Part shown: positions 3,756-36,738 of the stretch, piece by piece
Layout of the letters: each line of letters begins with the position of its first letter
How positions within the stretch are numbered: position 1 is the first letter of the stretch
NCBI GenBank assembly: GCA_016935665.1
Contig: JAFGQN010000218.1
Location: 1-36,738 of the forward strand
Length of the DNA stretch: 36,738 nucleotides
Origin: Deltaproteobacteria bacterium
GTDB taxonomy: Bacteria > Myxococcota_A > Polyangia > JAAYKL01
Reading direction: 5' to 3'
Notes under the pieces: generated by a model
What the model was told of the DNA's origin: nothing
Database searches by the model: none
The model's input: the letters and a program-made list of their open reading frames with translations, nothing else
Made by a program: the position numbers and the translations under genes

Positions 3756-4838
3756 ATGGAGTGCTTTTCACAAAAAAGAAGGGAAAAAAATAGAATGGCG
3801 ATGAAACACATTTTAATTTTAATGCTGATTGCGGCTTTAATTGTGTTGCAGGCGTGCGGAGACGGGGAAAATACGTCTTCAAACAGTGGCTCGGATTCCG
3901 ATTCAGATGGCGATGCCGATTCAGACGGCGACTCCGATTCAGACGGCGACTCCGACACTGACGGTGATTCCGATACTGACGGCGATAGCGATTCGGATGG
4001 CGATAGCGATTCAGATGGCGATAGCGATTCGGATGGCGATAGCGATTCAGATGGCGATAGCGATTCAGATGGCGATAGCGATTCAGATGGCGATAGCGAT
4101 TCGGATGGTGATAGCGATTCGGATGGTGATAGCGATTCAGATGGTGATACTGAAACAGATACCGGCACGGAGCCGAATGGCTTCTCCCCATGTCCCACCG
4201 ACGGATCGGACTGCAAAGTCATGCCTGTTGGGGATTCGATTACCGATGGTATGGGAACCGGATCTTACCGAACGCAACTGTTCAGAAACGCCACAAAAAA
4301 TGGCAAAAAGATGACATTGGTTGGCAGAGCAACTGGGGGGCCCAACGACGTGGATGGTGTGCCGTTCCCCAAAAATCATGAGGGCTACCCTGGCTGGTTC
4401 GTCGATCAATGGCATGCTGATGCGGCGCAGCCGGCGTTGAACGCCAACATGCCTCATATCATAACAATGATGCTGGGTACCAACGACGTTCATCAGCTGG
4501 ATAATCCCCGAGGCGGGGATGGGGCAGCGACGGCAGCGGAGTTGTCCTCCCTTATTGATTTCCTTACTGAGAAAGCCCCGGATACACTGGTGGCTGTTGC
4601 GCTTATTACGCCGGCCAACGGCAGATATGAATATGCGCAGCCTTTGATTGCCGATTACAACAGCAAGATTCCGGCTGTAGTGGATGAAAAAATTGCGGCA
4701 GGGAAACATGTGATACTGGTGGATTTATACACCGATTTTCCTCCAAATAGCCTTTCTGACGGCCTCCACCCCTCTCAGGCCGGCTATGATTTTATGGGAG
4801 ATCAGTGGTACGACGCCATAAAAGATTATCTGCCGTAG
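3756..4838 (+). CDS. SGNH/GDSL-type esterase lipoprotein with Asp/Ser/Gly linker
   Basis: Probable surface or periplasmic lipoprotein esterase, about 360 aa. GGAGG at 3744-3748 lies seven bases before the ATG at 3756; an ATG at 3795 would also give a signal peptide. A lipoprotein signal ends at LQAC (Cys34). Residues about 44-133 are a low-complexity linker built from D-S-D-S-D-G units. The SGNH domain follows: block I is PVGDSITDG (Ser161), with [20 protein letters not shown] (Asn243) and SDGLHPSQ (Asp335, His338). All catalytic residues are present. The order and spacing are like the XynB-type SGNH subfamily found with carbohydrate-active enzymes, so removal of acetyl groups from polysaccharide is a reasonable guess; the substrate is unknown. 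The linker probably carries the enzyme away from the membrane. Confidence 0.9.
3981..4142 (+). repeat. Nine tandem copies of an 18-bp unit inside a coding linker
   Basis: The unit GGCGATAGCGATTCRGAT is repeated nine times with only third-position changes (C/T in GGY, A/G in TCR). It encodes G-D-S-D-S-D. Older, more diverged copies lie just upstream (about 3892-3980). Because the unit is a multiple of three, copy-number change would alter linker length without breaking the reading frame. Confidence 0.9.
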
Positions 4839-18180: not shown

Positions 18181-18344
18181 ATTTCTCCAGGCTTTACGCA
18201 TTGGAGCGAAAGACTTTGTTGGGTGGCATGCCATGCCACGTCACAGCAATCGGGATTCCTGGCAAATATCGTGAATTGAACTGGTTCGGGACACGGGGAG
18301 AATATCGTCCACAACACCATCTGAGTGGCGATTTGTTTGGACAT
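18177..18344 (-). CDS. Small ORF (55 aa) coupled to the downstream lipoprotein
   Basis: GAGGAGG is followed at a good distance by the ATG at 18344 (MSKQIATQMVLWTIFSPC...). The stop TGA at 18179-18177 overlaps the ATG of the lipoprotein gene by four bases. The peptide is 55 aa with several cysteines (including a Cys-Cys pair) and tryptophans, no signal peptide and no recognised family. It may be a real small protein or a leader that couples translation of the lipoprotein. The site and overlap are directly visible; function is unknown. Confidence 0.5.
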   Translation of the reverse strand: MSKQIATQMVLWTIFSPCPEPVQFTIFARNPDCCDVAWHATQQSLSLQCVKPGEI

Positions 18345-18569
18345 AACATACCTCCTCCCCAAAGGAACTAACGGAAGCGTATTTCCGTCAGAAGGTAGAT
18401 CACTCTCATATAATGTAGTTATTTGTAGGATACGCCGCAACGAACAATACCGCGGATGCAGCATTTTTCAAAACCCAATAAAACGGGATTGCATTTGCAG
18501 ACACCCCGCCCGGCACTTACATCAGTTGCCTGCTTCATTCATCAGGGCGGATAGTGTATGCTGGTATTG

Positions 18570-18583
18570 CCTTTGGCCAAAGG
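18570..18583 (+). promoter_or_regulatory. 14-bp palindrome overlapping a ribosome binding site
   Basis: CCTTTGGCCAAAGG is a perfect inverted repeat. Its right arm runs into the AGGAG (18581-18585) that serves the ATG at 18592. In DNA it could be an operator; in mRNA a hairpin there is possible but would have a very small loop. Either way it is well placed to control the PL14-like gene. Confidence 0.4.
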
Positions 18584-18591
18584 AGTATGCG

Positions 18592-20283
18592 ATGCCTCAT
18601 AGCGCTTTAATCCGCAGTTCGTCCAAATCCCCCGTCTTTAATGCACAAGCCAAACACCACAGGTCCTCGCTGTGTGCACTGCGAAGGCGTCCCCATGGAA
18701 TACTATTAATGATGCTCATAATGGTACTGCCGTTGGCAGGGGTGATAACCGCGTGTTCCGATGCCAGCAACGGCACACACCAGGAGATGGGGAGCGATTC
18801 GGATACGCCCACAGATTCACAACCCAATTCAGATTCATTTGTAAACGAGGACTCCAATCCCCACTTTGAGACGGATACGACGCCACCAGCGGATACCGAC
18901 AGCGATACGGCCACAGACACCGCCACCGATGTCGACGTTGACACAGGAACAGACTCGCAAACAGATACCACCTGTGCTGCACCGCCGTCACAGGAAGCGG
19001 GATTTTTATGGTTCTCAGGATATGAAGCGGACCCGTGGGACGCGGTGTGGGGCCTGGAATGGCAATCCCTCGACAATCACGAAGTGACCCCGGATGGGGT
19101 GCTGTTTGGTCAGTATGCCGCGCGGGTCACGTATCCCGCGGGTTTGATGTCAGCGGAAGGTGGCAGCCAGTATCGGATGTCATTTGATTTACTGCAATCG
19201 CCCATCGTATCCAGAGAGGCGTTATATGTGCGCTACTATGTGAAGTTCGATGAAGATATTGACTTCGTGCTGGGGGGCAAACTTCCGGGGTTCATTGGGG
19301 GTACGGCCAATACCGGCGGTAATCCCCCAAATGGCATGGATGGGTGGAGTGCACGCATCATGTGGCGGGCAAACGGGCGCATTGTGCAATATGTGTATCA
19401 CCCGGATCAGCCGGGAGAATATGGCGAAGATATGGATTGGAACCTGGGCGGTGGCTCACGCTACTTCATTCCGGGACAATGGCACTGCGTGGAGACGTTC
19501 ATTGGCATGAACACGGTAAATGGCGAAGGTGAGACCAACGCCGCATACGATGGACAGGTGCGCTCGTGGCTGGATGGCGAGCTGGCCCTGGAGCGCACGG
19601 ACGTTCGATTTCGCTACACCAACGACTTTGCCATTGACGGGTTCTATTTCTCAACATTCTTTGGTGGCAGCACCGCGGAATGGGCGCCTGTGAAAGACGA
19701 ACATGCCATGTTCGATAATTTTGTCATCAGCGATACACGAATTGGCTGTCTGGAGAGTTGCATGATTCCCAAAGCCACTCCTCCGGGCCCAGACCCCATT
19801 ACGGTTCTCAGCAGCACACTGGTATTCAACGGTGACGACGCAGCCTTTTCCACCGGCAACTGGAACAACAACGGCACGTACGATTATCAAAACGAAGTGA
19901 ATCATACTCCCAGTGGCGCCTACAGCGCACACATCGTGTTTGATCCCGCAGCCTGGGACGCCACAGTATTTGGCGCCGCAGCACCCTTCAATCCCGGCGA
20001 TTACACTCACCTGCGCATGTGGATTCGACCATCGGGCATGGGAGTGCGCTTTCGTACGCAGTTTCGAGGCAGCACCACCAGCAACAGCGCCGACGTGATC
20101 GTGGACGGCTCTCCCACGTACCACACAGGCCCATGGCAGCCCAACACCTGGCAGGAAGTGATTGTCCCTATTGCCGATTTCGCTTCAGAGCAGGGTCAGC
20201 AGCAGCTCCTCATCCGCGCCGACACCAACACCCCCACCGACGGATTCTGGATTGATGACCTGGAACTGGTGGTGGCGGATTGA
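18592..20283 (+). CDS. PL14-like (alginate-lyase type) lipoprotein with C-terminal carbohydrate-binding-like domain
   Basis: Product of 563 aa. AGGAG lies six bases before the ATG at 18592. After a long basic N-terminus, a hydrophobic helix ends at GVITAC (Cys55 lipobox). Residues about 56-130 are a Ser/Thr/Asp linker (TDSDTATDTATDVD). The next 260 residues resemble polysaccharide lyase family 14-type domains: RYYVKFDEDIDFVLGGKLPG, GWSARIMWRANG, YVYHPDQ, FIPGQWHCVETFIGMN, a W-L-D-G-E strand, IDGFYFSTFFGG and MFDNFVIS. PL14 members cut alginate or glucuronan by beta-elimination. The last 160 residues (GDDAAFSTGNWNNNG..., LRMWIRPSGM, GFWIDDLEL) look like a jelly-roll carbohydrate-binding domain. 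Substrate is inferred from family resemblance only. Likely a surface-displayed polysaccharide-degrading enzyme. Confidence 0.82.
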   Translation: MPHSALIRSSSKSPVFNAQAKHHRSSLCALRRRPHGILLMMLIMVLPLAGVITACSDASNGTHQEMGSDSDTPTDSQPNSDSFVNEDSNPHFETDTTPPADTDSDTATDTATDVDVDTGTDSQTDTTCAAPPSQEAGFLWFSGYEADPWDAVWGLEWQSLDNHEVTPDGVLFGQYAARVTYPAGLMSAEGGSQYRMSFDLLQSPIVSREALYVRYYVKFDEDIDFVLGGKLPGFIGGTANTGGNPPNGMDGWSARIMWRANGRIVQYVYHPDQPGEYGEDMDWNLGGGSRYFIPGQWHCVETFIGMNTVNGEGETNAAYDGQVRSWLDGELALERTDVRFRYTNDFAIDGFYFSTFFGGSTAEWAPVKDEHAMFDNFVISDTRIGCLESCMIPKATPPGPDPITVLSSTLVFNGDDAAFSTGNWNNNGTYDYQNEVNHTPSGAYSAHIVFDPAAWDATVFGAAAPFNPGDYTHLRMWIRPSGMGVRFRTQFRGSTTSNSADVIVDGSPTYHTGPWQPNTWQEVIVPIADFASEQGQQQLLIRADTNTPTDGFWIDDLELVVAD

Positions 20284-22216: not shown

Positions 22217-23380
22217 ATGAAACCGGTATTTTTAATATTGATGGTATTAGTGTCGGCTGTCGCCTGCAGCAGTGGCTCCGATTCCAATAATACCAATTCC
22301 ATAAACTCAGCAGATGGCGCTTCCGACGCGGACAACGACGCCGATACGGATTCTGATTCCGATAGTGACGCAGATGCGGACACAGACACCGATTCTGATT
22401 CTGATACAGATTCTGATTCCGATAGTGACTCAGATGCAGACACCGACATCGATTCCGATTCCGATTCCGATTCCGATGGTGATACCAGCACGGATGGGGA
22501 TACAGACGACAGCACCGAAAGCGAATCCGATTCTGGCGATGAGACGCTCCGGTCCACAAGAATTGAAGCCAACGGCTTCACCTTCGATGCGCTGGAAATC
22601 GGTTTGGCCCATGGCGAGCCTGTGCTGTTGCTGCACGGCTTTCCAGACACATCTTTAATGTGGTCGGATTTGATGCCGAAGTTATGGGATAACGGCTACC
22701 ATTGCCTCGCACCGGACCAGCGCGGGTACAGCCCCGACGCGCGCCCACTCGAAGTGGATGCGTACAACTATGACGCGCTCATAGAGGACGCGTTTGCGTT
22801 TGGAAACAAGCTCGGACAAAAGTTTCACCTAATCGCTCACGATTGGGGCGCGAACGTGGGATGGCTCATGCTCGAAAAAGATCCATCCCCCATTGCTTCT
22901 TTTACCGCCATATCAATACCCCACTACGGCGTTTGGGCGCGCACAGTCTACGATGACAGCGAGATGGCGTGGTATCTTTCCATGTTGAATACGTGGATGA
23001 CGCCGGGAGAGGGAGAAGATTTCTGGTCCGAACAACAGCTCAAGAATATATGGAAAGCGAAACCGGCCGATCTGCTGGAGCAGACCATCGCGCACATGTT
23101 GGCGCCAGGCGCTATGACGGCGGCGCTGAACTGGTACAGGGCATCGGATGGCCACAAAAGCGTGATTGAAGATTTTGATCTCTGGGAAGTCAATGTCCCC
23201 ACCCTGCTCATCTTCGGCAGCGACGATACGGGGGGCCGTTCCGTGACGGATACGGCGCCACTCATGACCGGCAGCTATCGTCTCGTAAGACCAAAGGGCG
23301 GTCATTTCATCGTCGACGAGCAACCGGATGCCGTGACCGAAGAAATTCTGACGCACCTGCAAGAAAATCCCATAAAATAG
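22217..23380 (+). CDS. Epoxide-hydrolase-like alpha/beta hydrolase lipoprotein
   Basis: Product of 387 aa with AAGGAGG five bases before the ATG. Lipobox SAVAC (Cys17) is followed by a linker of Asp-Ser, Asp-Ala and Asp-Thr pairs to about residue 107. The hydrolase domain has the oxyanion motif HGFP (138-141), DQRGYS (165-170) and AHDWGANVGW with Asp207 as nucleophile in place of Ser. The cap-domain motif LNWYR (Tyr305) matches the ring-opening Tyr of epoxide hydrolases, and His361 is in KGGHFIVDEQP. Asp nucleophile plus N-W-Y-R favours epoxide hydrolase over haloalkane dehalogenase. Its display on a surface lipoprotein with a long acidic linker is unusual; most relatives are cytoplasmic. Confidence 0.88.
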   Translation: MKPVFLILMVLVSAVACSSGSDSNNTNSINSADGASDADNDADTDSDSDSDADADTDTDSDSDTDSDSDSDSDADTDIDSDSDSDSDGDTSTDGDTDDSTESESDSGDETLRSTRIEANGFTFDALEIGLAHGEPVLLLHGFPDTSLMWSDLMPKLWDNGYHCLAPDQRGYSPDARPLEVDAYNYDALIEDAFAFGNKLGQKFHLIAHDWGANVGWLMLEKDPSPIASFTAISIPHYGVWARTVYDDSEMAWYLSMLNTWMTPGEGEDFWSEQQLKNIWKAKPADLLEQTIAHMLAPGAMTAALNWYRASDGHKSVIEDFDLWEVNVPTLLIFGSDDTGGRSVTDTAPLMTGSYRLVRPKGGHFIVDEQPDAVTEEILTHLQENPIK

Positions 23381-27520: not shown

Positions 27521-28441
27521 TTAGTGGCCAAACACCAGCTTCCCGCCCAGCATACCCAACCGAGCGGTCACACCAGTGGCAGCCAAAAGCAGCGCCGTAT
27601 AAAGGACCATTTCCGTGCCCACCGGCACATGGGTCCACCCCAGCACCAGCCGCCAAACCGCCATTGCCGTCATCAGCACCCCAAGCACCACGCTCAATCG
27701 CTTTTTCTCCGGAAATACCCCGGTTTCAGTGGTGCCAAATCGATGCCGCGCATCGGACCATCCCGTTATCCCCGTCACCGGCGCCGCCGCCGCCGCCACC
27801 AGCATCAAATAAAAACTGGCCCGCTCCAAACACCCCTCGCCCAGCACCAGATACATCACCCACGAGAGGAACGCCAGCGGCAGCGCCCCATTGGGAAAGT
27901 GGGCCGCCACAGGATGAAGGTGCAGTTTTTCTATCAGCCCGCTAAACCCGCGGTGGTGATGCTTCGGGCTCTTCTTCTCGGGAATAAAAGAATCCTTTTT
28001 TGCCCCGCAAATGGGGCAAATATCCGGCGCATCATCTCCCTCGTGAATATAATTACACACCACACACCGCCATCTGTTCGCCTTTTGCGCCTCGCCGCTC
28101 CCCGTCTCATCAGACGCCGCCACCGCAGACGTCGCCCCCGCGCCCGCCCCGCTTTTTTCCAAATCCCCACCATCCACTTTGGGCACAAACACCGACCACG
28201 GCTGCCCACATACCGGACACGTATCCGGCGGCCCATCCCCCTCATGAACATAGCCGCACACCGTACACACCCATTGACGCGGCAATTGATCTGTCTTTGG
28301 ATTTACCTCGTCTTCGCCGCCATCCGGTTCAGGCGCCGCCATCTCCTCAAACGCACTCGCGCCCGCACCACACACCGGACACGCATCCGGCGGCGCATCC
28401 CCCTCGTGAACATAATTGCACACCATACAGACCCATTTCAT
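27521..28441 (-). CDS. Triple rubredoxin-like protein fused to DUF2231 membrane domain
   Basis: Product of 306 aa with an excellent ribosome binding site (AAGGAGG) before the ATG at 28441. It has three rubredoxin-like iron modules, each C-x2-C-x-Y-x-H-E-G-D then P-D-x-C-P-x-C-G: WVCMVCNYVHEGDAPPD, WVCTVCGYVHEGDGPPD and WRCVVCNYIHEGDDAPD, separated by Ala/Gly/Glu-rich linkers. From about residue 165 comes a DUF2231-type membrane domain, with its start motif LHLHPVAAHFPNGALPLAFLSW and about four helices. Iron coordination by twelve cysteines is expected; the His residues of the membrane part could bind haem. An electron path from soluble iron sites to the membrane, for example against oxygen or peroxide, is inference. 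It converges on the QorB-like stump (stops 2 bp apart). Confidence 0.88.
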   Translation of the reverse strand: MKWVCMVCNYVHEGDAPPDACPVCGAGASAFEEMAAPEPDGGEDEVNPKTDQLPRQWVCTVCGYVHEGDGPPDTCPVCGQPWSVFVPKVDGGDLEKSGAGAGATSAVAASDETGSGEAQKANRWRCVVCNYIHEGDDAPDICPICGAKKDSFIPEKKSPKHHHRGFSGLIEKLHLHPVAAHFPNGALPLAFLSWVMYLVLGEGCLERASFYLMLVAAAAAPVTGITGWSDARHRFGTTETGVFPEKKRLSVVLGVLMTAMAVWRLVLGWTHVPVGTEMVLYTALLLAATGVTARLGMLGGKLVFGH

Positions 28442-28615
28442 GAGACCTCCTTCAAAACACAGTTTCTATACCTAATACGAGAATTCCCGCCCCTGTCGAC
28501 CCGGCATCCCCTGTTTCCCCCCAGGAAATCAGAATTTTACTGTCACTGAAATCACGAATTCAAATCCACTCTTGCCAAGGCAACCGCTTTATTATAATAA
28601 GCTTCTTCTCATTCA

Positions 28616-28689
28616 GCACCCATAGCTCAGCTGGATAGAGCATCGGTTTCCTAAACCGGGGGTCGCAGGTTCGAGTCCTGCTGGGTGCG
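28616..28689 (+). tRNA. tRNA-Arg (anticodon CCU)
   Basis: A complete cloverleaf can be drawn: 7-bp acceptor stem GCACCCA/TGGGTGC, D arm GCTC...GAGC, anticodon stem TCGGT/ACCGG with loop TTCCTAA (anticodon CCT, reads AGG), five-base variable loop GGGTC and T arm GCAGG-TTCGAGT-CCTGC. The discriminator base is G; CC follows but the A of CCA is not encoded. It marks the boundary between housekeeping-type genes and the accessory island to its right, a common integration target, although no duplicate of its 3' end was found in the window. Confidence 0.95.
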
Positions 28690-28693
28690 CCGT

Positions 28694-28721
28694 CTGAAAA
28701 CCGAGCAAGCTCGGTTTTCAG
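28694..28721 (+). repeat. Perfect 13-bp inverted repeat just after the tRNA
   Basis: CTGAAAACCGAGC and its reverse complement are separated by two bases, effectively a 12-bp stem with a CAAG tetraloop. It sits five bases after the tRNA. It may act as a terminator or processing stem, but no T-run follows it on either side, so a mobile palindromic element is an alternative. Confidence 0.6.
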
Positions 28722-28732
28722 GCCAAGCGGCA

Positions 28733-28758
28733 GCTTATTTTGCGCCCGCAAAATGAGC
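28733..28758 (+). repeat. Second hairpin after the tRNA
   Basis: GCTTATTTTGCG and CGCAAAATGAGC form a 12-position stem with one T-G wobble and a two-base spacer. It is flanked by direct copies of GCGGCAG (about 28728 and 28762). Together with the preceding stem it forms a double-hairpin block. The rest of the gap to 28994 shows nothing else. Confidence 0.55.
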
Positions 28759-28994
28759 GAGAGCGGCAGACCAGTAAGTAATTGTTAAAGCTCTTATACC
28801 CGTAAGCCACCGTAAGATAATGGCCGAAACGGCTGGTCTCAACAGACAGGAAGTGCAATGGCACCATCGGTTTTCAATACAGATAATAAACCAAAATCTT
28901 ATGATGAACCTTCGTTCGGGACTCAGGCGTACTGAATTTTCAACCAGACAGGTAACATGTTGTTGTTGTTAAGATGTTCTGATAATGATTAGTC

Positions 28995-30050
28995 ATGACT
29001 CTTCAATCAAGCATAAATCAACTCTGTGATAAGTGGGGTCTGAATCTGGATCATATTGATCGGGCGCAGAAAGACTCCGATGAGACTGTTGTGGAGTTGG
29101 AAAAACGGCTTTGCGACATAAATCCGCGCAACGACACAAGTATTGTAGTATTTGGCTCTCTTGCCAGAGGTGAGTTTAGCGCGAAAAGTGATATTGATTG
29201 GACACTTTTAATTGACGGCGCTGCAGACAGCAACCACTTAGAGACTGTTTTGGAAATCGGAAGAATCGTTGATGAAGTCGCGGGTAAGTCACCGGGGCAG
29301 GAAGGCGTCTTCGGCAATTTAACGTTCAGCCACGAGTTGATTCATCTGATTGGTGGTCAGGATGATACCAACTTCAATACGACACAGCGCAATCTGCTGC
29401 TACTTGAATCGAAGGTTATTGGAGATTCGGCAGCGCACAAAAGAACGATACGAAATATTCTTAATCGATACATATTGGAAGATACGTCCTACGGCGATCA
29501 TTCAACATACGACCACGTACCTCGATTCCTTCTCAACGATTTTGCGAGATACTGGCGCACAATGGCGGTGGATTTTGCCTACAAACGCCGAAGACGACAA
29601 CAGGCAGGCGCTGCGTTGCGAAATATAAAACTTAGAATGTCTCGAAAGCTGTTGTATGTCACTGGATTGATTTCGTGTTTTGGATGCGAACTCGGGTTAT
29701 GTTTCAATACTGAGAATAAGAATTGTCCAGTGGAAAATTGCATTAGAGGAATGGAGCGCCTCATTTCGTTCTCTCCACTCGAGATATTGGCGCAAACGGT
29801 TTTGAAGATAAGCCCGGAACGACAAGATGTCCTTGCGGGACTTTTCGAGTCCTACAACGATTTTATCGGGCTATTGCAGGATAAAGACGCCCGCAACATT
29901 CTTAATAATTTGACTCCGGACCAGTATGCTGAGAATTCGGTATTTCAGGATGCCAGAAGAAACTCCCATCGATTTCGAGATGGCCTTGATCATTTGTTTT
30001 TTGAAGTTGAACCGCTTAAAACCCTGACGCGAAAATATGGTGTATTTTAA
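28995..30050 (+). CDS. Nucleotidyltransferase-fold protein (accessory island)
   Basis: Product of 351 aa. The DNA-polymerase-beta-type nucleotidyltransferase signature is clear: VFGSLARGEFSAKSDIDWTLLIDG, with Gly-Ser at 54-55 and the metal-binding acids Asp66 and Asp68. The third acidic residue cannot be placed with certainty. The remaining 230 residues are mostly helical and basic in the middle (YKRRRRQQAGAALRNIKLRM), perhaps for nucleic-acid or nucleotide binding, with an F-N-T-E-N-K-N-C-P-V-E-N-C stretch. It does not look like a typical AbiEii toxin, a CBASS cyclase of a class I know, or a two-domain tRNA enzyme. The ATG lacks a good ribosome binding site. Its stop TAA shares a base with the ATG of the next gene, so the two products are made together. 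Substrate unknown. Confidence 0.75.
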   Translation: MTLQSSINQLCDKWGLNLDHIDRAQKDSDETVVELEKRLCDINPRNDTSIVVFGSLARGEFSAKSDIDWTLLIDGAADSNHLETVLEIGRIVDEVAGKSPGQEGVFGNLTFSHELIHLIGGQDDTNFNTTQRNLLLLESKVIGDSAAHKRTIRNILNRYILEDTSYGDHSTYDHVPRFLLNDFARYWRTMAVDFAYKRRRRQQAGAALRNIKLRMSRKLLYVTGLISCFGCELGLCFNTENKNCPVENCIRGMERLISFSPLEILAQTVLKISPERQDVLAGLFESYNDFIGLLQDKDARNILNNLTPDQYAENSVFQDARRNSHRFRDGLDHLFFEVEPLKTLTRKYGVF

Positions 30051-30802
30051 TGAGAAAAATAGGTTTTTCAACGGGCGCATTGGCGCTATCGAATTTTGAA
30101 CTGGCTATTCAATATATGAAGGACGCACCGCTACAGTTTGATGCAGTGGAAATATCGGCGTTGCGCGTTCACGAACTGGCGCCGCTAATCGCCTGGCTGG
30201 AGCGGGTTGATTTCTGTCTCCCTTTTGGCAGTGTGGTGATTCATGCGCCAAGTGTCATGAACACGAAAGAGGAACTCGAAGTTGCTGATTTACTGCATAA
30301 GGTTCACGAAAGACAATTGCCAATTGTTCTACACGCCGATGCGTATCACAACGCCGCAATCTGGCGGCAATTTGATGATGGATTGCTGATTGAAAATATG
30401 GATAAGCGGAAACCCGGTGGTCGCACCGCAGATGAACTGGATATCGTTTTTGATGAATTGCCAGATGCCGCCCTTTGCTTTGATATTGGCCATGCCAGGC
30501 AAATAGACCCCACAATGATTGAAGCATCGGAAATACTCAAAAGGCATGGGCAACGTCTTAAGCAAATCCACCTCAGCGAAGTTACCTGTGGCAGCAAACA
30601 TGTTCCTTTGTCGTATACATCAATCGTTGCAGTTCGATCTATTGCTCAGTTAATACCAATCGATATCCCGATTATTCTGGAAGCGCAGGTTGAACCCACA
30701 CAAATGCTTTCGGAAGTCCAGCGCGCTGAAGAAGCATTGAATGCATTTTCAGAAACAGATGCGCAATGGCGCAATGCGATCCATGGACGGGTCGTCGCAT
30801 AG
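30050..30802 (+). CDS. AP-endonuclease-2-type TIM-barrel protein
   Basis: Product of 250 aa, a single TIM barrel of the xylose-isomerase-like/AP endonuclease 2 superfamily. Strand ends carry the expected metal ligands: His65 (VVIHAPS), His95 (IVLHADAY), Glu115 (LLIENMD), Asp145 and His148 (CFDIGHARQ), His174 (QIHLSEV), His184 and Glu211 (IILEAQV). This is the pattern of a di- or trimetal site as in endonuclease IV, so catalysis on a phosphate ester or sugar is likely. Which substrate (abasic DNA, sugar phosphate or a nucleotide product of its partner) is open. The ATG overlaps the stop of the nucleotidyltransferase gene by one base (TAATG). It converges with the AbiEi-like gene. Confidence 0.8.
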   Translation: MRKIGFSTGALALSNFELAIQYMKDAPLQFDAVEISALRVHELAPLIAWLERVDFCLPFGSVVIHAPSVMNTKEELEVADLLHKVHERQLPIVLHADAYHNAAIWRQFDDGLLIENMDKRKPGGRTADELDIVFDELPDAALCFDIGHARQIDPTMIEASEILKRHGQRLKQIHLSEVTCGSKHVPLSYTSIVAVRSIAQLIPIDIPIILEAQVEPTQMLSEVQRAEEALNAFSETDAQWRNAIHGRVVA

Positions 30803-30894
30803 TTTTTCGTTCCAGCCTTCTGTTCGCCCAAACGACCAAAGTAAACCAGCCGGAGGCTTGCCCCGGGGTTCCAGTTTTTCAAACGGATGATCGG

Positions 30895-31449
30895 TCACTG
30901 ACGTGCCTCCAATAGTTGTTTAAGTATTTCAAGTTCAGGGGCTGAAACCCTGCCCAGGTGCGCGGCGGTTTCGATGCTCTGGCGAATCAGGTGAGTAGGA
31001 ACGGCGCCACGGATTGCCTGTTCAATGGCTTTGGCTGGGGTCACAATTGGTATGCCTTCGTGCCAGCCTTTGTCTTTTTCATCCAGGTTCTCTTTATGGA
31101 GAACGTAGTTCTCGCCACCCTTGCGATTGACTCTGTATCCGGCCGGTACCACGATATGCACTTTTTCAGGGTTCACATCACATAGCGTATGCAGCTCCAA
31201 CGCCGTATCGTAACCCAGCACCCCATGCCGCGATGGCCACAACGTTGCCAGCATGTACGAATCAAGCTCTGTCGCCGGTATCTGCAAAAACCGATAAATC
31301 CCATGCCCCCGCCGTTCAATTTTCCCCGCCTGGTGCCATTGCCGAAGCCGCACCGGATCGGCATCCATATCACGCATATCATCAAACGTGATGAATCCAT
31401 ATTGATCCAACGCAACTTCAAAAGCTTGTTCCCATACTCGACCCGGCAT
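30895..31449 (-). CDS. AbiEi-family protein (type IV antitoxin/transcription factor), no toxin adjacent
   Basis: Product of 184 aa from the ATG at 31449. It has the AbiEi layout: an N-terminal winged-helix (FEVALDQYGFITFDDMRDM, RLRQWHQAGKIERRGHGIYRF), then IPATELDSYMLATLWPSRHGVLGYDTALELH, and a C-terminal part with HIVVPAGYRVNRK and IVTPAKAIEQAI. Members usually repress their own operon with an AbiEii nucleotidyltransferase toxin immediately downstream. Here nothing follows on the same strand, because the next gene converges. The start codon touches a perfect inverted repeat. It is divergent from the Gabija-like pair, so it may act as a regulator. An upstream in-frame extension to 31593 lacks family character. 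Confidence 0.82.
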   Translation of the reverse strand: MPGRVWEQAFEVALDQYGFITFDDMRDMDADPVRLRQWHQAGKIERRGHGIYRFLQIPATELDSYMLATLWPSRHGVLGYDTALELHTLCDVNPEKVHIVVPAGYRVNRKGGENYVLHKENLDEKDKGWHEGIPIVTPAKAIEQAIRGAVPTHLIRQSIETAAHLGRVSAPELEILKQLLEARQ

Positions 31450-31482
31450 GCAAATACCGTATGAAAAAAATACGGTATTTGC
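31450..31482 (-). promoter_or_regulatory. 12-bp perfect inverted repeat touching the AbiEi start codon
   Basis: GCAAATACCGTA and TACGGTATTTGC are separated by nine bases. The repeat ends exactly at the ATG of the AbiEi-like gene. It is a likely operator for autoregulation; as RNA it would form a hairpin against the start codon. A possible -35-like TTGCAA overlaps its far arm, which would make the transcript nearly leaderless. Confidence 0.6.
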
Positions 31483-31573
31483 AAGTTTTTGGTTTTGAGA
31501 ATGTTGAAAATCGTTGGGATTTCGTAACAGCCAGCGATACGTTCCACCAATTCCAGACAACTTTCCACAATAA

Positions 31574-31587
31574 TTTTCAATTGAAAA
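31574..31587. promoter_or_regulatory. 14-bp palindrome between the divergent AbiEi and GajA genes
   Basis: TTTTCAATTGAAAA is a perfect palindrome in the 209-bp divergent region, about 13 bp upstream of the candidate -35 box for the Gabija-like operon. A protein-binding site is plausible. Confidence 0.4.
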
Positions 31588-31599
31588 CGACAACTTTCA

Positions 31600-31628
31600 T
31601 TGGTCATTTCTTCCGCAACCCGTAAATT
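31600..31628 (+). promoter_or_regulatory. Candidate promoter of the Gabija-like operon
   Basis: TTGGTC (-35, 31600-31605) and TAAATT (-10, 31623-31628) have a 17-bp spacer; each matches the sigma-70 consensus at four of six positions. Transcription would begin about 25 bp before the ATG at 31659. Confidence 0.35.
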
Positions 31629-31658
31629 TATGAAAACCCAATTTGCAATGAGGTATTT

Positions 31659-33380
31659 ATGCCTGCGATCCGTCACCTGATAATCAGAAATTTTCGCGCG
31701 ATAAAAGAGTTCATGTGGTACCCAAATCCCGGACTGAACTGTTTAATCGGGCCAGGAGACTCTGGGAAATCAACAGTTTTGGACGCCATAGATGTTGTTT
31801 TGGGCGCAAGACGTTCAATCACGTTCAATGATGCTGATTTTAACTGTGGCAACATTTCTCAGCCGATTGAAATACTTGCAACAATAGGGGCACTGGAAGA
31901 CGAACTACAGAATTTTGAATACTACGGAAATGTTCTTCGGGGATTCAATTTACAGGACAGGACAATATTCGATGAACCTCAGCATGGTTTGGAGACGGTT
32001 TTAACTGTACGGCTCCGAGTAGGTGCGGATTTGGAACCTGATTGGACGCTTTTCTCCGAACGCTCAGATACAGCAGGACAAGAATATCGATTGAAATGGA
32101 AACATCGTATAATTGTTTCCCCAAACCGTTTAGGGGTGATGTCATACAATCATCTAACTTGGGGGTCTGGTTCTGTATTGCCGCGACTTTCAACTGACGG
32201 CATTGAGACTGGAGAGACCTTAGCTGCCGTGAGCCGCATTGCGCGAAGTGCTTTCCCTTCGCCTGTCCCTCCAAACATTCAGGAAACAATTAATAAGGTT
32301 CAAAGTGTTGCGGACGACATGGCAGTTGCTGCTCATGGGGTAAAGGCGGCTTTGGATCCCAAAGCCGTTGCGTTATCAAATGGCGCGATTAGCTTACATG
32401 ATAACAACGGTACACCTCTTCGTCAGTTAGGAACCGGTTCGACTCGTCTACTTGTAAGTGGTCTGCAGAAATTGGCTTCGGAATCATCCATGCTGTTAGT
32501 TGATGAGGCAGAGTACGGTCTTGAGCCATTCAGAATTTCAAAATTTTTACATGAACTTGGCGCAAAAAATGTGCATTCAGGTAAGCAGGTGTTCATTACA
32601 ACGCATTCGCCCCATGTATTGCGAGAACTTCAAGTACATCAACTGCATGTTCTTCGCAAAGCAGAAGTGCCCTTTGAGCCGCCGTGGAGTCAATACTCTC
32701 ACTGGGCATACACGGCCAATGCCAATGATAGTCAAGCGCAAGCAACACTGCGCGCATGCGCCGAAGCATTCTTTTCAAAAAAAGTTATTGTGGCCGAAGG
32801 AAAGACGGAGATTGGATTGGTGCGCGGCATTGACATGTTCGAAGAGTCGCAGAATCGACAAAGTTTGCTTTCGAACGGTGCATTTTGTGCCGACGGTGGA
32901 GGGTCAAAGTTGTTTGAACGAGCGATGGTTTTTGCCCAATTTGGTTATCCAACGGCTATATTTAAAGATTCTGACATATCAACGCAGCATACCAATTCCA
33001 CAGCGCTGGCAACGAAGCAGGGGATTCAAATAATAGAGTGGGGTCATGGTTGGGCAACCGAAGAGGCTTTGTTTAATTGCTGTCCGGAGTCGTTGATTTT
33101 AGAGCTTTTGGATTTGGCTGTAGACCGTAACTCGGCGGACGCAATTGACACACATATTCGCAATTCATCAAACCACAGTTACGACTTGAATAAATGCAAA
33201 GCGAGTTTTGAAGAGCCGATGCGAGGTTGTCTTGCGTCAAGCGCTAAAAAGTACGGTTGGTACAAAGATATTGAACCTGCAGAATATATAGCCCTCAATG
33301 TCATTGGACCAAACCGGAATACCTTCAAAAAAGAATTGATCGCTGTGATTGATAGTTTGTTTCAATGGGCAAAATCATAA
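31659..33380 (+). CDS. gajA: Gabija-like GajA: OLD-family ATPase/TOPRIM nuclease
   Basis: Product of 573 aa, close to the known GajA length (about 578). GAGG lies five bases before the ATG. The N-terminal ABC-type ATPase has Walker A GPGDSGKST (31-39), a degenerate signature LGTGSTRLL (257-265), Walker B SMLLVDEAEYGLEP (277-290) and the switch His in FITTHSP. The C-terminal TOPRIM domain has the catalytic Glu in VIVAEGKTE (Glu380) and the D-x-D pair in AIFKDSD (437-439). GajA nicks DNA at preferred sequences and is held inactive by nucleotides until phage activity depletes them (known for B. cereus Gabija). The gajB-like gene follows after nine bases. OLD-type nucleases also pair with other partners, so the name rests on the combination. 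Confidence 0.85.
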   Translation: MPAIRHLIIRNFRAIKEFMWYPNPGLNCLIGPGDSGKSTVLDAIDVVLGARRSITFNDADFNCGNISQPIEILATIGALEDELQNFEYYGNVLRGFNLQDRTIFDEPQHGLETVLTVRLRVGADLEPDWTLFSERSDTAGQEYRLKWKHRIIVSPNRLGVMSYNHLTWGSGSVLPRLSTDGIETGETLAAVSRIARSAFPSPVPPNIQETINKVQSVADDMAVAAHGVKAALDPKAVALSNGAISLHDNNGTPLRQLGTGSTRLLVSGLQKLASESSMLLVDEAEYGLEPFRISKFLHELGAKNVHSGKQVFITTHSPHVLRELQVHQLHVLRKAEVPFEPPWSQYSHWAYTANANDSQAQATLRACAEAFFSKKVIVAEGKTEIGLVRGIDMFEESQNRQSLLSNGAFCADGGGSKLFERAMVFAQFGYPTAIFKDSDISTQHTNSTALATKQGIQIIEWGHGWATEEALFNCCPESLILELLDLAVDRNSADAIDTHIRNSSNHSYDLNKCKASFEEPMRGCLASSAKKYGWYKDIEPAEYIALNVIGPNRNTFKKELIAVIDSLFQWAKS

Positions 33381-33389
33381 GGGGACGAT

Positions 33390-34814
33390 GTGCCAGTTGA
33401 TGCTGTTTTAAAAACTTGGCGTGGTTCTGTGGTTGCTCCTGCAGGTTGTGGTAAGACTCATCTGATTACCGAAATCGCCAAACGTGCTGATGGTGGTAAG
33501 CCCTTTTTAGTATTGACGCATACGACTGCCGGTGTGGCTTCGCTAAAGAAAAAACTGCACAAGTATAACGTCCCTAACGCAAACATTTCTGTGTCTACAA
33601 TTGACGGATGGGCGATGAGTGTCGCAAAGAAGTTCCCCCATGGGTGTCCTCTGAAGGCATCGCCAACGAACACGCAAATTTTTTACCCCGAACTGAGAAA
33701 TGTTGTTAGCAAATTCTTACAAGGGGGGCATATCGACGGAATTATTCGATCGACCTATTCACGACTATTGGTCGATGAATACCAAGACACAGGTTTAGAA
33801 CAACACAGCATAGTTCTATGTCTCTCGAATTTATTGCCAACAACGGTTTTCGGAGATCCAATGCAATCAATTTTTGATTTTGGCGGCCCTCTCCCCAGCT
33901 GGAATGAAGTCCAAAGTGTGTTTCCAGAGGTGTTGGCTCTAAATACTCCGTGGCGGTGGAACAACGCTGGACAATGTGGTTTAGGAAATTGGATTCTGAA
34001 TGTTCGTGCGGAATTAGAGAATCGGCGTTCAATCAATCTACAGACTTGTCCCAATAATGTCTTCTGGTATCCTCTTTCCGGGAGCGAGCGGGATGATTTG
34101 ACGAATCAAACCAAAGTTCTATTTGACTTGCGAATTAAGGGTTCCGAGACTGATTCCATTTTGGTTATTGGCTCCTCAATGGAAGCAAATACAAGGCACA
34201 AATTCGCGAGAAACTCCAGAGGGGTACATGTTGTCGAACCGGTCGATTTAAAAGACATGATCGCAGCTTCAAAACGACTGGACGGTATTTTAGGTCGTGA
34301 ACTTGTGGAATGTACACTGGATATCGCTTCTAAATTGATGACAGGTACTGAAAAGAAAAAAGTGATGACTCGTCTTGATACCATTCTGGCAGGAAGGCAC
34401 AGGGCTGAGCCGACGGCGGTCGAAATCGTGGCCTGCGCTGTTGTCAGACAGTCCTGCCGCAAATCTTTGCTGGAGCTATGGGAGACTCTGGCGAAGAAAG
34501 AAGGTGTGAGATTGTATAGAGGCCCTGTCTATTCTGCTTTTAAGGAAACATTGAGGCTGGCTGCCAGCGATGGACAAAAAAGCATTGAAGAATGTGCATC
34601 GATCGTTAGAGAACGGCGAAGGCACTACGGCGACCGTCGAATCCCGCAATTTGCTGTTGGCTCAACTCTCCTTTTAAAAGGATTGGAGGCAGATCATGTA
34701 TTGATCCTTAATGCTGATGAAATGAATAGGAAACATCTTTATGTGGCTTTGTCCAGAGGGGCAAAGAGCGTGACGGTGTTTTCTCGGACTGCGGTAGTTG
34801 GCGTGCAAATGTGA
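33390..34814 (+). CDS. gajB: Gabija-like GajB: UvrD/Rep-type superfamily 1 helicase
   Basis: Product of 474 aa (known GajB about 494). AAGGGGA lies shortly before a GTG start at 33390, nine bases after the gajA stop. Motif I is VAPAGCGKTHL (Walker A, 16-23); motif II is LLVDEYQDTG (Walker B), motif III VFGDPMQSIFDF, and PWRW is the motif IV-region Arg. Near the C-terminus, VGSTLLLKGLEADHVLI and HLYVALSRGAKSV are motifs V and VI. The large 1B/2B insertions of full-length UvrD are absent, as in GajB. GajB is thought to sense DNA ends or single-stranded termini and activate GajA in one complex. All helicase motifs look intact. Confidence 0.85.
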   Translation: MPVDAVLKTWRGSVVAPAGCGKTHLITEIAKRADGGKPFLVLTHTTAGVASLKKKLHKYNVPNANISVSTIDGWAMSVAKKFPHGCPLKASPTNTQIFYPELRNVVSKFLQGGHIDGIIRSTYSRLLVDEYQDTGLEQHSIVLCLSNLLPTTVFGDPMQSIFDFGGPLPSWNEVQSVFPEVLALNTPWRWNNAGQCGLGNWILNVRAELENRRSINLQTCPNNVFWYPLSGSERDDLTNQTKVLFDLRIKGSETDSILVIGSSMEANTRHKFARNSRGVHVVEPVDLKDMIAASKRLDGILGRELVECTLDIASKLMTGTEKKKVMTRLDTILAGRHRAEPTAVEIVACAVVRQSCRKSLLELWETLAKKEGVRLYRGPVYSAFKETLRLAASDGQKSIEECASIVRERRRHYGDRRIPQFAVGSTLLLKGLEADHVLILNADEMNRKHLYVALSRGAKSVTVFSRTAVVGVQM

Positions 34815-35069
34815 CTGCGATATATTTTCTTCGAGGTACTTATAAACGCTTGAAGATGGAATTTATGATTGCGAGACTTTGAAAAACTCGATGCTGGTTA
34901 TTAAGATACGTGGCGAGCATTGCAATGTTGACTTCTCGCCGAACAAGGGGAGATCAGATTAAACAGGATATCGATTCTCTGACTCGAAAATATCAACGAT
35001 TTCGTAAATTATATGCTCGCAGATCCGGTATTATTTCCTATGCTTGTTTTGATACAATGACTCCAAGTT

Positions 35070-35831
35070 TCATCTGCATATACCCCCGTTACATTGCCTT
35101 GATATGCAATCGGCATTGTTGCCACATGGCTGACCGGCGGGACGACGCGGTGCACAAACATTGCCAATACAGGCATTGATGCATTGACCGTCTCGGTCAC
35201 ATGGTGCTCCATCCTCGCCATTTGCCGTTACGCATACATTGTCATTTCGACAACGTTGGCCATCGGCGCACTGAGAGTCTGCATTGCATCCACATACACC
35301 ACCGTTGCACAAACGTGATACGCAGTCTGCATTGTTGCCGCAAGATTGCCCCGGAGCACGCCTTGGTGCACAAACGTTGCCAATACAGGCGTTAATGCAC
35401 TGGCCGTCCCGATCGCATGGTGCTCCATCCTCGCCATTTGCCGTTACACAGACATTGTCACTTCGACAACGTTGACCTGTGCGACAATGGGAATCGACGC
35501 GACAAAAACCACACTGATTCTCAACACAGTTTTTTCCTGTTGGACAATCTCGGTTTTGAGTACATTCCACCCATTGACAACCAAGACGGCTGCAAATAGA
35601 TGAGTTAGAAAGGCTGCTACAGGTAAACTTCCCGTTACAATAGAAACCACCTCCATCAGTAAATTCTGGTGTGCAGGGTTTAACACAGTCTTTTAAATCG
35701 GTGATAATTTGTGACGAACAAGACCTTTGCCCTTCGCCGATGCATTTTCCAGTTCCGCCATTGCATTTGCCTGCGCTAATAAAAACAAACGTCAATAGCA
35801 TGACAACAAAATACTGATTTTTTTTCATCAT
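35070..35831 (-). CDS. Secreted Cys-rich protein with internal duplication
   Basis: Product of 253 aa from the first of two tandem ATGs at 35831, with AAAGGAAG upstream. A signal peptide (YFVVMLLTFVFISAGKC) is followed directly by Cys-rich sequence; the Cys after SAGK could be a weak lipobox. Cysteines recur in the pattern of Dickkopf-type or myxococcal small Cys domains: NRDCPTGKNCVENQCGFC, SHCRTGQRC and CGNNADC. Two nearly identical 72-residue units (CVTANGEDGAPCDRDGQC, CIGNVCAPRR, GGVC or GGIC) follow each other at the C-terminus. Function unknown; likely extracellular and disulphide-bonded. It is the only gene of this surface-protein style in the island. Confidence 0.8.
   Translation of the reverse strand: MMKKNQYFVVMLLTFVFISAGKCNGGTGKCIGEGQRSCSSQIITDLKDCVKPCTPEFTDGGGFYCNGKFTCSSLSNSSICSRLGCQWVECTQNRDCPTGKNCVENQCGFCRVDSHCRTGQRCRSDNVCVTANGEDGAPCDRDGQCINACIGNVCAPRRAPGQSCGNNADCVSRLCNGGVCGCNADSQCADGQRCRNDNVCVTANGEDGAPCDRDGQCINACIGNVCAPRRPAGQPCGNNADCISRQCNGGICR
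35074..35471 (-). repeat. Two tandem copies of a 216-bp unit in the Cys-rich gene
   Basis: The copies are offset by exactly 216 bp (for example TTTGCCGTTA at 35221 and 35437 on the plus strand). They are most alike around the segments encoding GEDGAPCDRDGQCIN. Silent and a few coding differences show that the duplication is not brand new. Confidence 0.85.
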
Positions 35832-36560
35832 TAATTATGCTTCCTTTCTCAAATGAATTGCGATTACAGTTAATTGATGTTGGTATCGCATTGTGAAAAA
35901 AACTCGGGGACCTTTACATAACCCATTTATGGAGAATCCCTCCGTTTGCTTTTTCCATGAGGCGGTCGCTATGAAGGCTAAAATACTAATCTCTTTTTTC
36001 CATGTATTACACTGTATTGCTTGTATTGGAAAGCAAACCCAACAGAAGGTATGGGAAAAAATTGCTTTCTCTTCTGTCATTAGGCGAAGCATTTTTGTCC
36101 TTAGTTTTTGTTAATTGCCTTAAATACTTGAATGTAATCGATGGGACACTCATGGGGCACTTGCTCTCAACTTTTGCCAATAATCGGCAATAATGGGAGT
36201 AGTCATTTGATTGAGTATTCAACTGGGAGAGGAAGTCGTGGATTGACTGCGGTGGCTGCGCCATCCTCGTCGAGATGCTTGAAATCCGGCAGCTTCATGG
36301 ACTTGCGTCCATTGCGCCGTGCCGTATTGCCAAATCACCCCAAATCACCCCACCCCGGTTGTTTATTTTCATGCAGCAGGAAAAGCCAAAAATTTTTTCC
36401 GTGAGTTAAATCCGGTGATTCAATTCGAATGTTCTGTATGAAATACTGAGCGCATCAATACATCGAGCGAGGAACATACACCTCAGTTTCCAACAGAAGA
36501 TGCAGGAGTGCAAAACACGCGAGAGTTGCCATCAAATTATTTTTGTAAGCCCAGCTTCGT
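35832..36560. other. Long stretch without a supported gene
   Basis: Short frames on both strands occur, none with a convincing ribosome binding site and product. Two perfect direct copies of CAAATCACCC lie at 36331-36350. One minus-strand frame (KSMKLPDFKHLDEDGAAA, about 36200-36325) looks protein-like but is closed by stops at both ends; it may be a remnant of another element. Confidence 0.45.
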
Positions 36561-36737
36561 TTATGCTGACGACACCGACACACCCGAATGAATACGCATT
36601 GCATAAGTGCCCGCCGGAAACATGGCATCCCTTTTCCCTTCTTTCCACCGCTTCAACGCATCCCAGTACTGTGAGACAAAATATTTGTAACGACGTATTG
36701 CATTGATTCGCAGTTTTTTTTCAAGAGAGAAAAATCT
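36561..36737 (-). pseudogene. Transposase C-terminal fragment running off the window end
   Basis: The minus-strand frame enters from the window edge and ends at the stop 36563-36561. It reads YFVSQYWDALKRWKEGKRDAMFPAGTYAMRIH and so on, in two adjoining pieces: a Y-W-x-A-L-x-x-W-K helix and a V/M-F-P-A-G-T-Y-x-M-R-x-H segment. This is a C-terminal ending I associate with REP-associated/IS200-like or related putative transposases common in Myxococcota. About 58 residues are visible and the start lies outside. Family is by recall and moderately certain. Confidence 0.55.
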
Positions 36738-36738
36738 C

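Follow-up and report, generated by a model that had tools for sequence, protein, structure and literature searches.

AbiEi proteins repress their own promoter and operon by binding inverted repeats that lie over the -35 and -10 boxes (PMC3985639), and autoregulation is also described for Rv2827c, an AbiEi-type antitoxin whose binding sites are inverted repeats located between -1 and -131 of its gene (PMC7319586). The 36,738-nucleotide stretch of DNA analyzed in this study (the window) contains an AbiEi-like gene beside a Gabija system. As in the AbiE system of Streptococcus agalactiae (AbiEi/AbiEii), the AbiEi protein carries an N-terminal winged helix, and an inverted repeat appears, from the sequence, to cover the -35 and -10 boxes of its own gene. 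Unlike that system, the locus has no AbiEii gene adjoining abiEi in one operon, its start codon abuts the dyad, so that the promoter looks leaderless, and its putative operator is one 33-bp dyad, whereas that of S. agalactiae comprises two 23-bp repeats 3 bp apart. Rv2827c-Rv2826c of Mycobacterium tuberculosis has four repeats in two pairs, in contrast to the one dyad of the window, where no toxin gene is present. The Gabija part conforms to known systems, with GajA (ATPase and TOPRIM domains) followed by GajB (UvrD-like helicase), both full length and adjacent; the divergent AbiEi neighbor sets it apart from the other Gabija loci examined. The BrxR-type WYL regulators of defense islands (PMC9122601) offer a parallel, as they lie beside defense genes and inverted repeats were sought upstream of their own genes, but that family is reported to co-localize widely with defense systems, whereas the AbiEi-Gabija divergence was seen once.

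The original prediction that the AbiEi-like gene and gajA diverge across 209 bp (31450-31658) was borne out by Pfam, PADLOC, and the gene coordinates (Table 1). The AbiEi-like ORF matched Pfam AbiEi_4 (1.6e-7) and PADLOC AbiEi PDLC02228 (2.6e-55), and the structure model, built on two sequences and weak past the N-terminus, predicted the elements H-E-H-H-E-E across residues 3-54 and had an AbiEi (6y8q) as its best PDB fold match; together, these place the 184-aa protein in the AbiEi family with a winged-helix N-terminus. The C-terminal half is still encoded according to the PADLOC profile, which aligned with residues 4-179; Pfam AbiEi_1 remained below its cut-off, and the model pLDDT was <50 over residues 61-136. 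The protein shares only approximately 26-37% identity with the 83 AbiEi relatives compared below, and its helix-turn-helix is unlike that of the common-type relatives. No relative was found among viral contigs searched with the AbiEi protein, and no AbiEi was found in the phage records searched.

Table 1. Positions within the window of the genes and sequence elements discussed in the text.
Feature	Position	Strand	Evidence or remark
tRNA-Arg (CCT)	28616-28691		Directly before PDC-M70A/B, abiEi, and gajAB
abiEi-like gene	31449-30895	-	184 aa; ATG at 31449, stop at 30895; winged-helix N-terminus
33-bp dyad (putative operator)	31450-31482	-	Ends exactly at abiEi start codon; perfect arms reach 31449 and 31483
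Putative leaderless abiEi promoter	31456-31484	-	Within dyad; read from sequence, same register in relatives
14-bp palindrome TTTTCAATTGAAAA	31574-31587		Probably incidental
Best by-eye gajA promoter	31600-31628	+	TTGGTC-17-TAAATT; fails consensus scan
gajA	31659-33380	+	PADLOC 8.7e-201
gajB	33390-34814	+	PADLOC 4.9e-163

The inverted repeat touching the abiEi start codon, initially described as 12 bp long, is indeed present there, but its two arms measure 14 bp (31449-31462 and 31470-31483) and are 100% complementary across a 7-nt spacer. When the gap was shuffled 5,000 times under a first-order Markov model, arms of at least 14 bp never appeared, and the dyad core occurred once in the window at up to three mismatches and never in 100 shuffles. 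The putative abiEi promoter would consist of a -35 box TTGCAA (31484-31479), a 17-nt spacer, and a -10 box TACGGT (31461-31456), with 6 nt to the ATG; this is the only promoter reading that the dyad overlaps, the gajA promoter being putative. Searching 360 genomes of the phylum for an operator of the window type returned the window copy only.

To place this repeat in context, we compared 83 AbiEi genes, nearly all from the same phylum, scoring a dyad where at least 9 of 14 pairs formed in the 33 bp that immediately precede an in-frame start codon. Such a dyad abutted the start codon in 37 of the 83 relatives versus 3 of 1,640 shuffled 33-mers, a count that uses whichever start codon gives the best dyad and in which the relatives, sharing ancestry, are non-independent events; a clear abutting dyad is missing in about half of the set. 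When the start was set solely by closeness to the profile start (60 genes, window excluded) and thus chosen independently of the dyad, 27 genes had at least 9 pairs, and mean pairing at offset 0 reached 7.53 of 14, compared with 3.69 (sd 0.32) elsewhere in the offset series. Most of the 37 dyads are near TTGCACAAAAC...TTACGTTTTGTGC-ATG; TTG stands at -35 in 31 of them, TAnnnT at -12 to -7 in 33, and both in 30, a pattern that we read as a leaderless promoter lying within the dyad. The window dyad and promoter have the identical register (TTGCAA-17-TACGGT-6-ATG), with letters that differ from the common type. A 33-bp dyad ending exactly at the start codon may represent a compact form of AbiEi operator common to many abiEi genes of one phylum; the operators described in PMC3985639 and PMC7319586 have spacings other than this abutting dyad. 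In five relatives (L002, L005, L012, L018, and L031), an apparent second, similar dyad lies farther upstream of abiEi, as in Rv2827c.

Self-repression of AbiEi through the start-codon repeat is well supported by this 83-gene comparison and the published autoregulation of AbiEi, and to that extent the original claim that AbiEi may repress both itself and Gabija stands. The winged-helix domain would bind the two half-sites of the 33-bp dyad, which would cover both boxes (-35 and -10) of a leaderless promoter, so that bound AbiEi would shut off abiEi and its transcript would begin without a leader. Gabija would have its own promoter, with gajA independent of AbiEi, and abiEi and gajAB may simply be divergent neighbors in a defense island. 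Taken together, the sequence comparisons make it probable that the start-codon repeat is the abiEi auto-operator, that AbiEi is an orphan, and that Gabija is independent, any effect of AbiEi on gajAB being nil or incidental. The striking palindrome would then be accounted for by AbiEi self-control and not by Gabija regulation, which removes a tempting false lead. The same repeat was listed in the terminator scan as a plus-strand terminator-like site, with a 14-pair stem followed by AGTTTTTGG, and could on those features be a terminator that halts read-through from PDC-M70 into gajA instead of an operator. That role seems improbable given the mere 5 G-C pairs in the stem, the two terminator-like sites against 1.2 expected by chance, and the start-codon register common to many abiEi genes; terminator and operator roles could also coexist.

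Built-in control of Gabija by AbiEi, the other half of the claim, is not supported. A model in which AbiEi, acting from the gap between the genes, represses gajAB as well as its own gene draws on the divergent genes, the 209-bp spacing, the DNA-binding family, and the absence of a toxin gene, as well as on two weak sites near gajA: an imperfect dyad at 31629-31661 (9 of 14 pairs), the best AbiEi-like site there, which lies over the gajA ribosome site (GAGG at 31650-31653, preceding the ATG), and a half-site with four mismatches at 31634. Both sites are at about chance level, and the start-codon dyad lies approximately 116 bp from the best reading of the gajA promoter, which is too far for simple blocking of that promoter by dyad-bound AbiEi to be plausible. 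The candidate gajA promoter itself, part of the original prediction, was weak by consensus and recognized only by eye, a sigma-70 scan of the region having returned no gajA promoter. The 14-bp palindrome placed just upstream of it does exist, but a perfect palindrome of this length arose in 4% of shuffled gaps, and five occur in the window. In footprinting upstream of other gajA genes, neither palindrome was conserved: TTTTCAATTGAAAA was found in the window's own copies only, and the AbiEi half-site words were represented by a single stray 8-mer.

The predicted recurrence of the AbiEi-Gabija divergence in other genomes also failed to appear. Our GajA set comprised 80 relatives in bacterial genomes, nine viral-contig matches (three of them short), and two from the phylum; about 85 of these loci have upstream sequence, in which AbiEi was sought by a profile search of all ORFs and by a PADLOC and Pfam scan in which 112 further upstream ORFs were run alongside one AbiEi. 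A divergent AbiEi was present at none of the approximately 85 loci, and the recurrence beside the system that would mark a dedicated regulator was not seen among them. AbiEi lay near gajA at two, L067 (Eremiobacterota) and L091 (a Rubrivivax MAG), in each case as part of a complete AbiEi-AbiEii operon that runs in the same direction as gajA. These operons (L067:353-3543 and L091:2566-6236) lie directly upstream of gajA and belong to two different AbiEi subfamilies. By-eye ORF reading placed the two Gabija loci of the phylum behind HsdM-like and BREX-like genes, and the three annotated plasmid Gabija loci had no AbiEi. The titles and abstract openings of papers naming both AbiEi and Gabija state no regulatory link between them. 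Joint repression of abiEi and gajAB from the shared gap is thus quite unlikely in our assessment, although a 209-bp divergent gap could still allow some effect of AbiEi on gajA. Also quite unlikely is a variant in which the toxin was lost and AbiEi was kept since it also damps gajAB through the weak sites near the gajA start; if true, Gabija would here have a regulator of the AbiEi type.

Another contig of the same genome, C37, carries the decayed 5' fragment of a related abiEi, with 86% identity over approximately 120 bp and a near-identical dyad. No Gabija genes were found among the ORFs around this copy, and similarity stops approximately 20 bp past the dyad. Because the copy keeps the dyad without Gabija and the similarity ends so close beyond it, the dyad travels with abiEi. 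The C37 dyad has one compensated base-pair change and one broken pair and is thus uninformative on selection; its preservation is no better than that of the coding portion. The decayed fragment and its operator (L003:1500-1650 on contig C37 of G000) adjoin a GGAGTCGCTACTCC hairpin and an operator-like half-site, ATACGGTA.

AbiEii lies next door in 72 of the 83 AbiEi relatives, and the window AbiEi is most likely an orphan from AbiE, a type IV toxin-antitoxin system. Within the AbiEi family, antitoxicity sits in the C-terminal half. The proposal that AbiEi acts as a regulator rather than an antitoxin therefore met a divided outcome, being favored by the lack of an adjoining AbiEii but weakened by the C-terminal half that the gene still encodes. 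AbiEi could have remained an antitoxin, either guarding against AbiEii made elsewhere or pairing with the neighboring PDC-M70A nucleotidyltransferase, and the retained C-terminal half, the three AbiEii genes on other contigs of the genome, and the nucleotidyltransferase nature that PDC-M70A shares with AbiEii all fit this possibility. Yet each of those AbiEii genes (on contigs C234, C42, and C141) has an AbiEi match just upstream on its own contig, and PDC-M70A and abiEi are convergent and do not form one operon. Pairing with PDC-M70 was rejected, as PDC-M70 genes in two other genomes had no AbiEi alongside. We consider a continuing antitoxin function unlikely overall. Pfam calls the ATPase domain of GajA a "putative AbiEii toxin," which is a name only and is no evidence of a toxin-antitoxin pair at this locus. 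Two relatives (L026 and L173) likewise retain an intact dyad operator with no AbiEii detected, and why such orphan AbiEi genes persist is a small question in itself. By-eye reading showed the L173 abiEi adjoining a DUF262-like gene.

G+C content drops from approximately 0.59 to 0.45 at the tRNA-Arg gene. Because this gene precedes the defense genes and coincides with the G+C fall, as expected for such islands, the tRNA is likely the insertion point of an acquired defense island. A repeated tRNA end, which would mark the far edge of the island, was sought but not found downstream within the window, and an Rfam scan of 28000-36738 returned the tRNA only. At 28995-30802, PADLOC marked a candidate defense pair that converges with abiEi and consists of PDC-M70A, which has a nucleotidyltransferase fold, and PDC-M70B; the pair also occurs elsewhere in the phylum, in genomes where no AbiEi adjoins it, and the literature searched contained no mention of PDC-M70. 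Elsewhere in the window, a 194-bp direct repeat (80% identical) lies at 35068-35477 within a cysteine-rich minus-strand ORF, and the ORFs at 3756-4838, 18325-20283, and 22217-23380 carry long Asp-rich Ser/Thr repeat stretches near their N-termini.
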